A DNA stretch of 64,000 bases from Pseudomonas sp. Irchel 3H7. Lineage in GTDB: Bacteria; Pseudomonadota; Gammaproteobacteria; Pseudomonadales; Pseudomonadaceae. Location: assembly GCF_900187605.1 (NCBI RefSeq), contig NZ_FYEA01000001.1, forward strand, positions 186,001-250,000, written 5' to 3'. A program made the position numbers and the translations under genes. The notes beneath the pieces are model-generated. The model did no database searches. It had not been told where the DNA came from and saw only the letters and a list, made by a program, of their open reading frames with translations. Of this stretch, positions 10,016 through 48,911 are shown one piece after another; the first letter of the stretch is position 1; every line of letters begins with the position of its first letter.

Positions 10016-10675
10016 CTACCAACTTCCGTATGGAATGCCATATTTATCGATATACCGCTTTGCCTTTTCACTCACCGGATAAGCGTAACGCCCTTCGTTC
10101 TTACCTTGGCTCGGCCCCAGTGGCTCAATTTCAGCCTGCGCTCGAGCGACTTTAACCGGGTGGTGGCAAGAGTCTCTTACCCAAACCTGCACAACACCAC
10201 CGGGGGCCAACCCTAAATAAACCGACGCCATAAATCTCGCTTCCTGATCAGGCGTCTGCGGGCAACGTTGATTGACGGACGCCACCATCAACTGCCTGGC
10301 TTCCTCTGGGATTTCTACCCATGCCTGCCACGTTTTCTGTTCGACAATCGATTGCCAACGGACCCAGATGCGAACAGGTAAATCTGCTCCCACCACTCTC
10401 CTTCCGCTGCCGCCTACCCCACCTGTCCAACCTCGGGCGGACTCCGTTCCATCTTCAGGCTCTCCCCCCGCAGCGGTGCCGCCGCCGGTTTTATAGAAAA
10501 TCCTGCCGTTAATGTCTTGAACAGAACTGTTCTCTACCCAGACTTTCATGTAGTCCGGCTCGGTAAACGCCAACTCCCACCACTCGGATTTCGGGTCATT
10601 TTTTGCTGAAAGTGGATCCGCGGACTGGCACCCAGTAATGAACAGCGCGCATAGCAGGGTAAAAAGTACTTTCAT
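10016..10675 (-). CDS. DUF2931-family lipoprotein, probable T6SS lipase immunity protein (first copy)
   Basis: 219 residues. Lipobox ITGC with Cys16. The ATG at 10675 shares one base with the stop of the lipase gene (TGATG), so translation is coupled and effector and immunity are made together. It is followed after about 30 bases by a paralogue. Compared with that paralogue it has extra glycines in the middle (GGVGGSGRRV). Known family role: inhibition of the cognate phospholipase in the periplasm. The exact partner assignment is inferred from gene order. Confidence 0.82.
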   Translation of the reverse strand: MKVLFTLLCALFITGCQSADPLSAKNDPKSEWWELAFTEPDYMKVWVENSSVQDINGRIFYKTGGGTAAGGEPEDGTESARGWTGGVGGSGRRVVGADLPVRIWVRWQSIVEQKTWQAWVEIPEEARQLMVASVNQRCPQTPDQEARFMASVYLGLAPGGVVQVWVRDSCHHPVKVARAQAEIEPLGPSQGKNEGRYAYPVSEKAKRYIDKYGIPYGSW

Positions 10676-12216
10676 CACCAAAGTTTCCAGTCAGCTACAT
10701 GAGGGTGTTGTACGCGTATCGAGTCCGGCGTCGGGGCATTGATGTAAACGGCACGGACGCCACTGCCATCTCTGCGCCCGAGAGGATGGTTCCAATTTGC
10801 AGACATGTGAATGTACTTCAGCTTCAGAAATTGGTCTTCTTGGATTGAGGTGTCGTAACTACCCGCCAGAAATCGATCACACAGCGCTTGAAGCTCTGCG
10901 GGCACTGCCAACTCAGGCGTATCGGGAATGTCTTGAAACCGAACGCCCTTCTCTTTTGCCAATCGGTGCATCACTCGTAGATATACCCTGGAGAGCAAGC
11001 CACTCACAGGACGTTTGAGTTGCACTGCGGCATATACGCGCTTCATACGTGGGCTGAGCCGTTCCTGCCGATCAATTGGCAGAAGAAGGGCATCAGGCGT
11101 GACGATCTCCAGCATCTCTTCTGGCCATCCTTTGGCGAGCCACTGCGCCTTCACCGTCACGGCATCGCGGTAGATCGAAGTAGTGGAGACGTCGGTAAAT
11201 TGCGACACCACAAGCGTTTGCATCGGACTGATGAGTACGCACTCTTGGACCTCGTCGCGGTAGCCACCGCCGATGTCGGAATGAACCCCGGGCAGAGTTA
11301 TTTCCAAGTGATCCGCTTTAACGCGGCTCAAAGCGAAGTTGGCCCGATATTCGTCACGCGCGGATAACTGCACGACATCAGTGAAGAAACGGCGGTCGAG
11401 GTAAAGTTTGATTCCTGTGGCGATGGGACTTTTGATATCCCCCAGATTCGACCAGCCAGCAATGGATGGCACCGTATCAAAAAGGCCAATAAAACCCATG
11501 TTGATGCTGCTTTTGTACTCTTCGATGAAGGTCCGGCTGAGGGCGTAGGCGTTGCTGCGCAACACTTCCCCGAGTGGCCCCTGCTTTCCACGTACGACCT
11601 CGTTGGCAAAGTGTCTTGCTGCAGCAGCACCGCGGCTGAAGCCGAATGCATCAAAGGTCAGGGACGTAATTTCACTATTGGGATTGTTGTCCAACACGTC
11701 CTTGATACGCGTTTTGATCTCTGCAAACGACAACTGAACACGGCCCGCCACGCCTGTTTCGCCTCGGCCAGTACCACCACCTAACGTACTGTCCTTTTTG
11801 CCTGACTCAGTTCCTATTCCCTCGATGTAAATCATCCGGAACGCTTGCTTCTGCGAACTATCCCCTTCGGCCCTTTGAGGTGCGAAGTACAGTTCGCTCA
11901 GTTTCTGAACATTGGTGGTGCTATTGGCGTAGCTGCTGTCCGGATCCTTCATATAGGGCTGACAACTAGCAGGAATATCTTCCGGCGCAATCGGATGCTG
12001 CGCCCCACACAGCAATCCCGCCGCCGTGTTATTCGCATTATTCCCAGTGCCATCAAAGAAAACTCCAATCCTCAACGCGATCCCGATTTTCTCAGGTTCG
12101 CGCGCGGGTTCTTTCCCGTGTTTCTCATATTCCGCCCAACGCTGGGCGTGAATATCGACGGGTTTGGCTTCTTCGTAACGAAAATTTTTCGGGGGGTTGG
12201 GTACGTAGCCACTCAT
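10675..12216 (-). CDS. DUF2235 phospholipase, Tle1-type T6SS effector
   Basis: 513 residues. The alpha/beta-hydrolase core of DUF2235 is visible: oxyanion region GVFFDGTGNN (51-60), nucleophile elbow FGFSRGAAAA with Ser194, LFDTVPS with Asp247, and VHSDIGGGY with His312, giving a full Ser-Asp-His triad. Tle1 enzymes are phospholipases delivered by type VI secretion into the periplasm of rival bacteria. Start at 12216 has AGGA upstream; the longer frame to 12282 lacks one. No VgrG, PAAR or adaptor gene is adjacent, so this is an orphan effector cassette. The structural T6SS genes at 60.5-64 kb could serve it. Confidence 0.88.
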   Translation of the reverse strand: MSGYVPNPPKNFRYEEAKPVDIHAQRWAEYEKHGKEPAREPEKIGIALRIGVFFDGTGNNANNTAAGLLCGAQHPIAPEDIPASCQPYMKDPDSSYANSTTNVQKLSELYFAPQRAEGDSSQKQAFRMIYIEGIGTESGKKDSTLGGGTGRGETGVAGRVQLSFAEIKTRIKDVLDNNPNSEITSLTFDAFGFSRGAAAARHFANEVVRGKQGPLGEVLRSNAYALSRTFIEEYKSSINMGFIGLFDTVPSIAGWSNLGDIKSPIATGIKLYLDRRFFTDVVQLSARDEYRANFALSRVKADHLEITLPGVHSDIGGGYRDEVQECVLISPMQTLVVSQFTDVSTTSIYRDAVTVKAQWLAKGWPEEMLEIVTPDALLLPIDRQERLSPRMKRVYAAVQLKRPVSGLLSRVYLRVMHRLAKEKGVRFQDIPDTPELAVPAELQALCDRFLAGSYDTSIQEDQFLKLKYIHMSANWNHPLGRRDGSGVRAVYINAPTPDSIRVQHPHVADWKLW

Positions 12217-12321: not shown

Positions 12322-12343
12322 CGACGAGGGTTTCCCCTCGTCG
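12322..12343 (-). terminator. Hairpin terminator after first DUF6124 gene
   Basis: Perfect inverted repeat CGACGAGG-GTTTCC-CCTCGTCG, about ten bases after the stop of the DUF6124 gene. There is no strong T tract, so the terminator role is probable rather than certain. Confidence 0.5.
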
Positions 12344-12354
12344 GGATGGGTTGG

Positions 12355-12717
12355 TTAGCTGGCGATCTCGACGTTATCCAGCGCTTGGTTGACGGCGATT
12401 TCGCCGAGCATCACGACTTGGGCGATGCCCAGTGCGGTTTTGCGGTGTGGGGTGTCGAGCATGGCGGCGAAGTTGAGGAGCATTTCGCTGGCGGAGCCGA
12501 GGGTTTCGCTGGCGTTGGCGAGCAGGGATTCGCTGTTGTACTTCGGGTTGGCGAGGTACATGCGTTCGGGCTGTTGGGTGCTGGCCATGATTTGGCTGGC
12601 GGGTTTGAGGTAGTGGTCGAGGGCGCGTTCGGCGGCTTCGTGGAATCGCTTGGAGTCGGGGGATTCGTAGGGGGATGTGGGGTCAGTTTCGGGTGGGTTG
12701 GGTGTTGGTTTGATCAT
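12355..12717 (-). CDS. DUF6124 (formerly DUF3077-type) small protein, copy 1
   Basis: 120 residues beginning MIKPTPNPPETDPTS. Recognised as a small Pseudomonas-specific protein family of unknown function. It has a Pro-rich N-terminus, a helical middle, and a C-terminal helix with few charges (TALGIAQVVMLGEIAVNQAL). Start chosen at 12717 because both copies share identity from this ATG onward but not in the in-frame extension. The second copy at 13785-14147 is almost identical (only a handful of base differences), which means recent duplication or gene conversion. Preceded by a ~300-nt structured leader. Confidence 0.8.
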   Translation of the reverse strand: MIKPTPNPPETDPTSPYESPDSKRFHEAAERALDHYLKPASQIMASTQQPERMYLANPKYNSESLLANASETLGSASEMLLNFAAMLDTPHRKTALGIAQVVMLGEIAVNQALDNVEIAS

Positions 12718-13024
12718 GGTTGTGCTCCTGGTTTTCATTAGGAGCTACCAGCATCACTTGCAGATGATGGGTGGCAGCTATGTGCGGGTCTGCAAGACCG
12801 GGAAACCAGGCACCCGGCAGACCCGAAGGTCTCCCGCACAAAGCTGCCATTGAGCGGACACGAACGGGTGTCCTTTGGCTGGCTGTGCGACTGGTTTTTC
12901 CGGCGGGCTTGCAGACCCGATCACTGATGAGCAGTGACGGGAATCAAGGTACGGAGGGAGTGCCAGACGCACAAGCCGGCGGATTCTGGCTTAGTCGTAG
13001 GCGATGGCGCAAGGAGTTGTAGGG
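12718..13024 (-). ncRNA. Structured leader RNA of DUF6124 gene, copy 1
   Basis: Non-coding leader between the DUF6124 start and a conserved block at about 12966-13023. Helices (plus coordinates): 12772-12788 with 12833-12849; 12786-12796 with 12908-12918; 12798-12809 with 12891-12903; a UUCG-capped hairpin at 12819-12832 (minus-strand loop GACC-TTCG-GGTC); a hairpin at 12856-12873. The first two helices interleave, which implies a pseudoknot or two alternative folds. Each has compensatory changes in copy 2. The orientation is set by the UUCG loop and by the downstream gene. Probably a cis-acting regulatory RNA; the ligand or trigger is unknown. Confidence 0.7.
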
Positions 13025-13108
13025 CGTAGCCAGCAACGAGAGACACCTATTAAACAAACATGTAAATCATCTGTTTAACAGGTCAGTTGAGATGCAGAGA
13101 ATTCCGAA

Positions 13109-13633
13109 TCAATGGGTCTCAAACGAATTCCACTGGTGAGTATCAAGATCCAGCGCGCAGTAGGGTTCGAAAACGTAAAGCACAAGCGGATTCTCAATAT
13201 CAATCGCTGCCACCTGGAGTGACTTGAGATAGGACTGAGCCTCTGCGAATGATGTACCGAATAGAGGATCATCCATTGCCTTCGCGCGCGTCAGCTTGGA
13301 AATCGTTTGATCTGGATGTTTTGCCATCGCAATTCGAAATGCCAGGCTAGCGTCGAAGTGTGTTTTACCGAAGACGTGCTGACGAAGCCTACTGATCACG
13401 CTTCTTGAAATACCAACGTAGATAGGCACGCCGTTGTCGATCAGCACGTAGCAACCCGAAAAATCTTGCGCCAGTTTGAACTGCTTCAGCAACGATTTAA
13501 CGCCAACACCGGGCACTGAAAAGTCCTTCATCTCTCGCGGAGTTTCGAGAGAGCTTTTCATTCTGGTCATATGGCCGGGCAGAACCGTTTGGGCTAACTC
13601 TTCAAATGTGTGCATGCATTCGTGTAACGCCAT
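13109..13633 (-). CDS. GIY-YIG-like nuclease-domain protein
   Basis: 174 residues from the ATG at 13633 (an upstream TTG at 13666 and an internal ATG are alternatives). The segment from residue 61 carries the core of the GIY-YIG fold: CYVLI, then IYVGIS at 71-76, then RLRQH with R82/R84 and H86. The N-terminal 50 residues and the C-terminus are not recognised. GIY-YIG domains cut DNA in repair enzymes, homing endonucleases and restriction enzymes. It lies between the two copies of the duplicated leader/DUF6124 unit and is slightly lower in GC than genuine core genes. Confidence 0.65.
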   Translation of the reverse strand: MALHECMHTFEELAQTVLPGHMTRMKSSLETPREMKDFSVPGVGVKSLLKQFKLAQDFSGCYVLIDNGVPIYVGISRSVISRLRQHVFGKTHFDASLAFRIAMAKHPDQTISKLTRAKAMDDPLFGTSFAEAQSYLKSLQVAAIDIENPLVLYVFEPYCALDLDTHQWNSFETH

Positions 13634-13784
13634 TGGAGAACCGCTCGGTCGAGAGATGGATGCCAACGCTATCGCGTCAACTTAGGCCATTACAAGCGAT
13701 GTGACACATGTCTATTTAAAGCGACTCCTGAACATAGATCTCTGTAGCGAAGAACAGAGGAATCGCTACAGAGATCGTTAACAT

Positions 13785-14147
13785 CTAGCTGGCGATTTCG
13801 ACGTTATCCAGCGCTTGGTTGACGGCGATTTCGCCGAGCATCACAACTTGGGCGATGCCCAGTGCGGTTTTGCGATGGGAGGTGTCGAGCATGGCGGCGA
13901 AGTTGAGGAGCATTTCGCTGGCGGAGCCGAGGGTTTCGCTGGCGTTGGCGAGCAGGGATTCGCTGTTGTACTTCGGGTTGGCGAGGTACATGCGTTCGGG
14001 TTGTTGGGTGCTGGCCATGATTTGGCTGGCGGGTTTGAGATAGTGGTCGAGGGCGCGTTCGGCGGCTTCGTGGAATCGCTTGGAGTCGGGGGATTCGTAG
14101 GGGGATGTGGGGTCGGTTTCGGGTGGGTTGGGTGTTGGTTTGATCAT
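13785..14147 (-). CDS. DUF6124 (formerly DUF3077-type) small protein, copy 2
   Basis: 120 residues, nearly identical to copy 1 (the proteins differ at one or two positions such as PHRK/SHRK). Start at 14147 with AGGAG-type sequence upstream on the minus strand. The coding sequence is much better conserved between copies than the leaders, which differ at many sites but keep the same pairing. That contrast suggests gene conversion or selection on the coding part, with the RNA free to covary. Function unknown. Confidence 0.8.
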   Translation of the reverse strand: MIKPTPNPPETDPTSPYESPDSKRFHEAAERALDHYLKPASQIMASTQQPERMYLANPKYNSESLLANASETLGSASEMLLNFAAMLDTSHRKTALGIAQVVMLGEIAVNQALDNVEIAS

Positions 14148-14450
14148 GGTGAAACTCCTAGTTAGTAAAAAGGAGCCTTCACATTCGCTACCAAACGAAG
14201 GTGGCGGCCATACGCGGGTTGGTAGACCGGTAACTAGGACCCGGCACACCCGAAGGTGTCCTGCGCATGGCCACCATTGAGCAGAGACCTGATGAGGTCT
14301 GCGAACGGTTCGCGATGCGACTAGTTATGGCGGGCTACCAAACCCGATCACTGTTTTTCAGCGACCGACAGACGATAGAACCCGCGACCTAGACGCACAA
14401 GCCGGCGGATTCTGGCTTAGTCGTAGGTAACGGCGCAAGGCGTTGTAGGG
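14148..14450 (-). ncRNA. Structured leader RNA of DUF6124 gene, copy 2
   Basis: Same architecture as copy 1 with different bases. Helices (plus coordinates): 14202-14218 with 14260-14276; 14216-14225 with 14335-14345; 14227-14237 with 14321-14330; a UUCG-capped hairpin whose closing arm reads ACACC/GGTGT where copy 1 has AGACC/GGTCT; a hairpin at 14284-14300. The 5' block (minus-strand CCTACGACTAAGCCAGAATC and following bases) is nearly unchanged between copies, so it is likely a conserved functional core. Confidence 0.7.
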
Positions 14451-48203: not shown

Positions 48204-48911
48204 CTACAACTCCCACGCGAACGGATTGAACAGATAACCCTTGCCCCACACGGTTTTGATGCACATCGGCTCGCGGGGATTGTCTTTGAGTTTGTTGCGT
48301 AATTTGCTGATGTACACGTCGACGCTGCGGTTGAGGCCGTCGAAGGCAATCCCGCGCATGCGATTGAGGATGTCGTCGCGCGACAGCACTTTGCCGGCGG
48401 CGCTGGCCAGCAACCACAGCAGCTCGAATTCCATGGTGGTCATTTCGATGACCTCGCCCGCCAGCCGCACTTCACGGCAACTGCGGTCAACGCTCAACTG
48501 GCCAAACTCCATATAACTCACCACGTTGCTGTCCGGCACCTGCCGCCGTTGCAACGCGCGCAGCCGGGCCAGCAACACCGGTGGCTTGATTGGTTTGATT
48601 ACGTAATCATCGGCGCCGGACTCCAGACCGAGGATATGGTCGAGATCGTCTTCCTTGGCGGTCAGGATCACGATCGGTGTGTCCGACACGCTGCGAATTT
48701 CCCGGCATACGTGCAGACCGCTCTGCCCCGGCAGCATCAGGTCGAGCACCACGACTTTCGGCTTGAATTCCAGAAAGGCAGCCACGGCCAGGTCTCCACG
48801 ATGCACCGTACGCACCTCGTAGCCGTGTTGTTCGAGAAAGTGGGCGATCAACGCCGCCAGACGCTCATCGTCTTCCACCAACAGGACTTTGCCAAAACCC
48901 AGGTTATCCAT
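48204..48911 (-). CDS. rstA: OmpR-family response regulator (RstA-like)
   Basis: 235 residues. Receiver with EDD (13-15), Asp57 and VIKPIKPPVLLARL, followed by a winged-helix domain with DVYISKLRNKLKDNP and KTVWGKGYLFNPFAW. That C-terminal ending is characteristic of RstA. First gene of the pair, directly upstream of the kinase. Confidence 0.88.
   Translation of the reverse strand: MDNLGFGKVLLVEDDERLAALIAHFLEQHGYEVRTVHRGDLAVAAFLEFKPKVVVLDLMLPGQSGLHVCREIRSVSDTPIVILTAKEDDLDHILGLESGADDYVIKPIKPPVLLARLRALQRRQVPDSNVVSYMEFGQLSVDRSCREVRLAGEVIEMTTMEFELLWLLASAAGKVLSRDDILNRMRGIAFDGLNRSVDVYISKLRNKLKDNPREPMCIKTVWGKGYLFNPFAWEL

Follow-up and report, generated by a model that had tools for sequence, protein, structure and literature searches.

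A family of C4-type antisense RNA cassettes with locus-specific recognition codes upstream of DUF6124 genes in Pseudomonas

The 64,000-nucleotide stretch of the Pseudomonas sp. Irchel 3H7 genome analysed here (the window) contains two paralogous genes for DUF6124 proteins, each preceded by a structured leader. As judged from sequence and Rfam alignment, both leaders are the known phage-type C4 antisense RNA, accompanied by its a1/b1 and a2/b2 targets. The model that we propose, and consider likely, is that C4 is cut from the gene's own transcript and would silence the DUF6124 gene behind it through a2 and through b2, which lies over the Shine-Dalgarno sequence, and that the many cassettes of this kind in the genome would be insulated from one another by private recognition codes.

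Assignment of the two leaders to a known RNA family

In a cmscan search of the whole window, the two leaders match the C4 model of Rfam (RF01695) on the minus strand with 77.7 bits for copy 1 and 77.0 bits for copy 2, against a cut-off of 45 (E-values 1.7e-13 and 2.6e-13). The c4-a1b1 target element (RF03163) lies just upstream of each C4; it scores 47.4 bits in copy 2, over the cut-off of 46.7, and 27.4 bits in copy 1, under it, yet copy 1 has an 11-nucleotide complementarity at a1 and one of 7 nucleotides at b1. The matches to RF01695 and RF03163 rule out an unknown riboswitch or an unnamed RNA family. A preliminary description of this DNA had recognized no named family in the leaders and had set an Rfam comparison beforehand as a refuting test; since the known family is matched in both copies, its claim of novelty falls. 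IsrK RNA (RF01394), which the available text of PMC12197685 describes as an RNA of a Salmonella prophage, gives a match of 26.3 bits over the a1b1 region of copy 2, below its cut-off of 50, and copy 2 is not assigned to that family.

The elements follow one another in the same order in both copies: a promoter-like block, a 5' hairpin, a1, b1, C4, a2, b2 and the DUF6124 gene. Within C4, hairpin 2 carries b' in its loop; a' comes after b'. The segment 12786-12796 of copy 1 (CTTGCAGACCC, minus strand) is complementary to 12908-12918, and 12803-12809 to 12891-12897; the corresponding pairs of copy 2 are 14216-14225 with 14335-14345, the target side being one base longer, and 14231-14237 with 14321-14327. 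The a2/b2 pair is a third complementary place, beside the start codon, where b2 overlaps AGGAG in both copies. The features are as follows.

14395..14400, minus strand: copy 2, -35-like TTGTGC, from the sequence and an alignment of 41 upstream regions, within the conserved block 14394-14420
14372..14377, minus strand: copy 2, -10-like TATCGT, 17 nucleotides from the -35-like hexamer, from the alignment of upstream regions
14347..14365, minus strand: copy 2, 5' hairpin of the c4-a1b1 element, from the RF03163 alignment
14327..14378, minus strand: copy 2, RF03163 c4-a1b1 match, over the cut-off
14335..14345, minus strand: copy 2, target a1 GGGTTTGGTAG, from the sequence
14321..14327, minus strand: copy 2, target b1 TAACTAG, from the sequence
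14197..14281, minus strand: copy 2, C4 antisense RNA, RF01695
14231..14237, minus strand: copy 2, b' CTAGTTA, forming the loop of hairpin 2 of C4, from the RF01695 alignment and the sequence
14216..14225, minus strand: copy 2, a' CTACCAACCC, unpaired in the C4 model except for its last bases, from alignment and sequence
14188..14196, minus strand: copy 2, target a2 GTTTGGTAG, from the sequence
14156..14164, minus strand: copy 2, target b2 TAACTAGGA, overlapping the Shine-Dalgarno-like AGGAG 14155-14159
13785..14147, minus strand: copy 2, DUF6124 gene (Pfam PF19619), 120 amino acids
12969..12974, minus strand: copy 1, -35-like TTGTGC, within the conserved block 12968-12994
12946..12951, minus strand: copy 1, -10-like TACCTT, 17 nucleotides from the -35-like hexamer
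12900..12941, minus strand: copy 1, c4-a1b1 element, below the cut-off
12908..12918, minus strand: copy 1, target a1 GGGTCTGCAAG, from the sequence
12891..12897, minus strand: copy 1, target b1 AAACCAG, from the sequence
12767..12854, minus strand: copy 1, C4 antisense RNA, RF01695
12803..12809, minus strand: copy 1, b' CTGGTTT, from the RF01695 alignment and the sequence
12786..12796, minus strand: copy 1, a' CTTGCAGACCC, from the RF01695 alignment and the sequence
12757..12764, minus strand: copy 1, target a2 TCTGCAAG, from the sequence
12727..12734, minus strand: copy 1, target b2 AAACCAGG, overlapping AGGAG 12725-12729
12355..12717, minus strand: copy 1, DUF6124 gene (Pfam PF19619), 120 amino acids

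Copy 1 also has an in-frame upstream ATG (12736-12738) just ahead of the stretch that holds b2 and the Shine-Dalgarno-like motif. In both copies, the block around the -35-like hexamer contains the inverted repeat AAGCC-N10-GGCTT, to which a regulator may bind.

All the pairings quoted in the preliminary description are present in the sequence at the places it gave, and it was right to see the leaders as structured, with compensatory base changes and with helices that exclude one another; its list of pairings lacked a2/b2, and the RNAs lie on the minus strand. Two of its helices, the UUCG hairpin and the outer stem 12772-12788:12833-12849, belong to the Rfam C4 model. Its crossing helices likewise exist and exclude each other; they are in the first place the a':a1 and b':b1 antisense-target pairs, as in phage P1, and the pseudoknot or two-state switch that it proposed is only a secondary reading of them. 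The near-unchanged 5' block that it described is conserved, but is probably promoter DNA: because the block holds the -35-like TTGTGC 17 bases before a -10-like hexamer, the leader would measure about 220 rather than about 300 nucleotides. The wider covariation check that it had called for gives a strong signal, both in the matching of codes in three genomes described below and in the 17-pair outer stem of C4, where 666 of 697 cells are standard pairs across the 41 copies and several pair types occur at most positions.

Number of C4 RNAs and the genes that follow them

At least 41 C4 RNAs of this genome exceed the RF01695 cut-off; the number is a lower bound, since 150 of the 1693 initial candidates were scored. 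Among its 38 DUF6124 domain hits, 32 start at most 350 nucleotides behind a C4. Of the remaining nine of the 41 C4s, one (L001) precedes a Bro-N gene, two (L003 and L005) precede DUF3077 genes and five (L004, L029, L038, L040 and L041) genes for proteins of about 100 amino acids; the last (L006) precedes a contig end and has no clear gene. The Bro-N gene behind the C4 at L001 (C8:383727-383813) is antirepressor-like, a phage-like arrangement that recurs at L139 of another genome, G019. The proteins of about 100 amino acids (genes at C31:97055, C16:52898, C10:322254, C17:169352 and C7:165747) form a third kind of C4-linked product, with a motif like LLIDTQAPL..L...A..RL.A, and are also found at several loci of a further genome, G006. 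Three of the four that were scanned have no Pfam match at E <= 1 and the fourth has a sub-threshold hit only; a group of ten such sequences gives no significant profile link to DUF6124 or DUF3077.

In a set of 57 genomes of relatives, C4 occurs in 36, namely in 32 of the 36 belonging to the same genus (0 to 42 matches each) and in 4 of the 21 others. DUF6124 is found in 28 of the 36 genomes of the genus and in 0 of the 21 others, and DUF3077 in 26 of the 57, all of one genus. C4 is thus wider in distribution than DUF6124, as the genome G009 illustrates, with 38 C4s but 2 DUF6124 hits. In named Pseudomonas genomes, C4 lies directly upstream of DUF6124 at 79 of 79 loci among the matches listed; cmscan was used for this count, as parsing by regular expression missed many of these loci. 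At three of these 79 relatives' loci (L232, L244 and L256), the Pseudomonas small RNA P10 (RF01668) lies within about 600 nucleotides of the C4.

Recognition codes and their matching at the own locus

The b' loops, whose boundaries were set by a simple pattern and not by covariance alignment, are all distinct, in 41 of 41 copies of this genome and in 30 of 30 in each of the two other genomes, G019 and G006, where the 30 best-scoring of 42 and 41 C4s were tested. No two of the tested cassettes of the same genome share their full code (0 of 820, 0 of 435 and 0 of 435 pairs). Each code finds its counterpart preferentially at its own locus: a run matching a' at six of seven positions is present in the own upstream region of 40 of the 41 copies and in the own downstream region of 39, the figures for loci with a different code being 104 and 113 of 1556, and a b' run of at least seven occurs in the own downstream region in 30/41 (95/1640 elsewhere) and in the own upstream region in 14/41 (34/1640 elsewhere).

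When the targets are fixed by position, the summed duplex energy of the four sites is best at the own locus for 37 of 40, 25 of 28 and 23 of 24 loci in the three genomes, in a test that was devised after a first one with wide windows and that omits the loci without a clear ATG (1 of 41, 2 of 30 and 6 of 30). The corresponding z values are -21.6, -16.3 and -15.1, and in none of the three genomes does any of 20000 permutations attain the observed mean.

Change of the codes between paralogues and genomes

For 18 close paralogue pairs (protein identity of at least 85%), the coding sequences are on average 91% identical and the b' loops 54%. Exact codes of this genome recur in 14 of 41 cases among the 30 C4s of G019, and in none among the 30 of G006; cassettes with identical code cores are found in several named species. 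Between this genome and G019, 20 flank-supported pairs have a coding identity of at least 0.87, many of them with flank support on one side only; b' is identical in 8 of these pairs and at most 0.76 identical in the other 12.

In the eight of these 12 replaced pairs that were examined, b' fits its own b2 better than that of its partner in 16 of 16 comparisons, the smallest advantage being 0.8 kcal/mol (L021 against L155). The cleanest pair, L034/L163, has a coding identity of 97%, and its b', b1 and b2 have changed together. For three of the 12 (L019/L142, L022/L162 and L031/L154), the code of the G019 copy is found at another locus of this genome and, because the codes recur in this way, these cases may be paralogue exchanges or mis-paired flanks. 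Two paralogous cassettes, at L012/L156 and L019/L142, look as if their codes had been exchanged between flank-matched loci of the two genomes, which hints at a recombination of cassettes or, again, at mis-paired flanks.

The broader view that these observations suggest, and to which we give an even chance, is that some Pseudomonas chromosomes carry about 40 antisense circuits side by side, all using the scaffold of a single phage RNA and insulated from one another. Their codes would evolve as immunity alleles do: orthologues would either retain them or exchange them wholesale together with their targets, paralogues would not share them, and selection would act against cross-talk.

The DUF6124 protein and the neighbouring genes

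The DUF6124 paralogues are under purifying selection, with a median ratio of nonsynonymous to synonymous substitutions (dN/dS) of 0.44 and no value above 1 among the 342 of 496 pairs whose proportion of synonymous differences (pS) lies between 0.05 and 0.6. The AlphaFold2 model of the protein is a helical hairpin of low overall confidence (predicted local distance difference test 75.9, predicted template modelling score 0.46); it has no PDB or BFVD fold match at E <= 0.001, and the protein has no match in PADLOC, PHROGs or the PDB sequences. The profiles of DUF6124 and DUF3077 align (probability 95%, E 2.4e-8) and both occur behind C4; if the proposed circuits are real, the two families would gain a first regulatory context.

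The idea of DUF6124 as a cargo gene of phages or plasmids was rejected: 50,697 phage records gave a single match, situated where a prophage record ends, and 72,556 plasmid records gave none. IMG/VR holds 32 DUF6124 loci, which may be host flanks because 29 of them lie within about 2.5 kb of a contig end.

The genes next behind the two DUF6124 copies of the window give no match to antirepressor families. A gene for a Tle1-like lipase of the type VI secretion system (10675-12216, minus strand, ATG at 12216) begins about 140 nucleotides behind copy 1 and is followed by two DUF2931 genes; a Tle1-like stretch lies directly behind DUF6124 in 22 of the 79 loci in named genomes, among the matches listed by tblastn, with 72-97% identity. 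Between the two cassettes, a gene for 185 amino acids (13109-13666, minus strand) has no Pfam match and weak PADLOC hits only (UzuA, PDC-S14); by eye, its product may be GIY-YIG-like. Perfect inverted repeats are present downstream of each DUF6124 gene, at about 12322-12343 and 13737-13776, neither with a clear run of T after it on the gene strand.

Proposed mechanism and alternative explanations

In the proposed model, transcription would start from the promoter-like site just upstream of a1, and C4 would be freed from the longer transcript, probably by RNase P as reported for phages P1 and P7, for which the available parts of PMC12197685 and PMC5320573 describe both the release of C4 from its transcript and the block of translation through a2/b2. 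The dinucleotide GG, found at the same place in 41 of 41 C4 copies, is a candidate RNase P cleavage site. The a' and b' segments of the freed C4 would pair with a2 and with b2, the latter over the Shine-Dalgarno sequence, and thereby block the translation of DUF6124, while a1 and b1 would compete for C4 in cis and thereby delay or tune it. Because C4, once freed, could act on every copy that carries its target, the codes of paralogues are expected to stay apart, which fits the observation; selection would keep them so, and each cassette would form an insulated circuit of its own. As for the product that is controlled, our guess is that DUF6124 is a small, normally silent effector or regulator, recruited from phage immunity modules or travelling with them.

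Several observations weigh against this proposal. The promoter sites are consensus-like only, and six of the 38 DUF6124 hits have no C4 directly upstream: three lie 547-1310 nucleotides behind a C4 that is already occupied, one stands at a contig start and two have no C4 near. The commonest a' heptamer is common to 8 of the 41 copies. With position-fixed targets, a2 and b2 alone are best at the own locus in only 29/40, 23/28 and 18/24 cases. With wide windows, the own locus is best in 17/41 for a2 and b2, and for the sum of the four sites it is best or jointly best in 30/41 when viewed from C4 and in 17/41 when viewed from the target; in this wider test a2 alone is weak in G006, where 304 of 20000 permutations reach the observed value. 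As these counts are lower, insulation is incomplete by this measure and some cross-talk is possible. In the eight replaced pairs, b1 follows less well than b2, the own partner being better in 13 of 16 comparisons, equal in one and worse in two. A relationship of DUF6124 with Icd of P1 was also considered and rejected, hhalign finding no similarity.

The last point against the proposal concerns the competition between folds. The outer stem forms in 40 of 41 computed folds of the isolated C4, but in computed folds of truncated precursors (n = 41) the C4 stem is favoured in 21 and the pairing of a' with upstream sequence in 18. The two copies of the window stand on opposite sides, copy 1 favouring the upstream pairing and copy 2 the C4 fold, so no single cis fold is conserved, and since the two pairings compete, a1/b1 could tune the release of C4. 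The same competition is what would be expected of a cis-acting two-state leader, in which a1/b1 pair with a'/b' or else C4 folds, the balance setting downstream translation without any released antisense RNA; both sets of helices are conserved and mutually exclusive, and matching to the own locus is strong at a1 and b1. We nevertheless consider such a device unlikely, since the isolated C4 retains its outer stem, the a2/b2 sites at the start of translation match the trans-acting design of P1, the preferred cis state varies among the copies, the window pair included, and a device acting purely in cis could do without different codes in paralogues.

A type I toxin-antitoxin system, with DUF6124 as the toxin and C4 as its RNA antitoxin, would account for a small gene with a complementary antisense RNA in its own leader and for the many paralogues with different codes. 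The protein, however, gives none of the sequence or fold-library matches sought above, and its helical model is of low overall confidence; we regard this explanation as improbable.

To a trans-acting anti-phage library, in which chromosomal C4s would silence the antirepressor mRNAs of incoming phages and the diversity of the codes would track that of the phages, we give a small chance. A role of this kind has been proposed for Acinetobacter: the available text of PMC5320573 offers the targeting either of phage or of host transcripts by the C4-like small RNAs of A. baumannii. C4 precedes a Bro-N gene in Pseudomonas phage PAJU2 and once in this genome. In IMG/VR, two C4 patterns searched as regular expressions gave 97 matches in the returned loci, of which 65 were parsed; these precede a Bro-N relative in one case (L303), DUF6124/DUF3077-like genes in 20 and other genes in 44, so that the sample is thin and mixed. 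In 15 of 40 copies the best viral target outdoes the own a2 and b2, and in 11 of 40 the best other locus of the genome itself does so (32/41 and 24/41 with wide windows). The mean predicted pairing with 37 distinct viral a2/b2 targets is, however, -13.6, like that with other own loci (-13.3) and far from that with self (-21.9), and the a2/b2 sites of the own gene are matched and replaced together with the code, which a pure phage sensor would not need.

That the cassettes are relics of decayed prophages without present function is very improbable: C4 is best known from phages and one of the 41 copies still precedes a Bro-N gene, but four-site code matching is kept in most copies, DUF6124 is under purifying selection and identical code cores are found in several named species.

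Significance and comparison with known systems

If the proposed circuits are real, some 40 natural variants of the same antisense device, with different codes, exist together in a single genome, and the rules of antisense specificity and cross-talk would be directly measurable with them. The cassettes would also be a chromosomal case of diversifying RNA recognition codes, similar to the codes of plasmid incompatibility and of phage heteroimmunity.

A close parallel to these cassettes is the immunity region of P1. The record NC_005856 has the same order of elements, with promoters, a1 at 48255-48261, b1 at 48269-48276, C4 at 48343-48419 (68.8 bits with the RF01695 model), a2 at 48423-48429, b2 at 48452-48459 and icd at 48470, and it annotates a2/b2 as the target for repression of icd ant translation. 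The Pseudomonas cassettes share with P1, and with P7 as far as its published descriptions go, the C4 fold, a' and b', a1/b1 upstream and a2/b2 downstream, b2 lying over the ribosome site, and a promoter-like site upstream of a1. They differ in that the gene under control would be DUF6124 instead of icd-ant, and in that one genome carries at least 41 chromosomal copies with distinct codes. With DUF6124 in the place of icd and ant, and without similarity to Icd, they do not belong to the P1-type C4-icd-ant immunity operon. In phage PAJU2, C4 is directly upstream of a gene, as it is here, but that gene is Bro-N antirepressor-like and the record contains one C4.

The catalogue of Weinberg et al. 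from 2010 (PMC2864571, available text) includes both C4 and c4-a1b1. Multi-copy chromosomal C4-like RNAs are already known from Acinetobacter: the available text of PMC5320573 reports 21 chromosomal C4-like small RNAs (Group 1) in A. baumannii AB5075, with variable a' and a processed C4 region seen by RNA sequencing. The Pseudomonas C4s resemble them in being chromosomal and multi-copy; unlike Group 1, for which that text describes no demonstrated target, cognate gene or own-target code, they stand in cassettes with a1/b1, a2/b2 and a protein gene. A literature search over titles and the beginnings of abstracts, with most subscription papers, bioRxiv and supplements outside its scope, returned no C4-DUF6124 cassette family and no locus-specific codes within a chromosome. 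What is new here, beside the precedents of P1, PAJU2 and Acinetobacter, is thus a set of C4 cassettes tied to DUF6124 and endowed with locus-specific codes.

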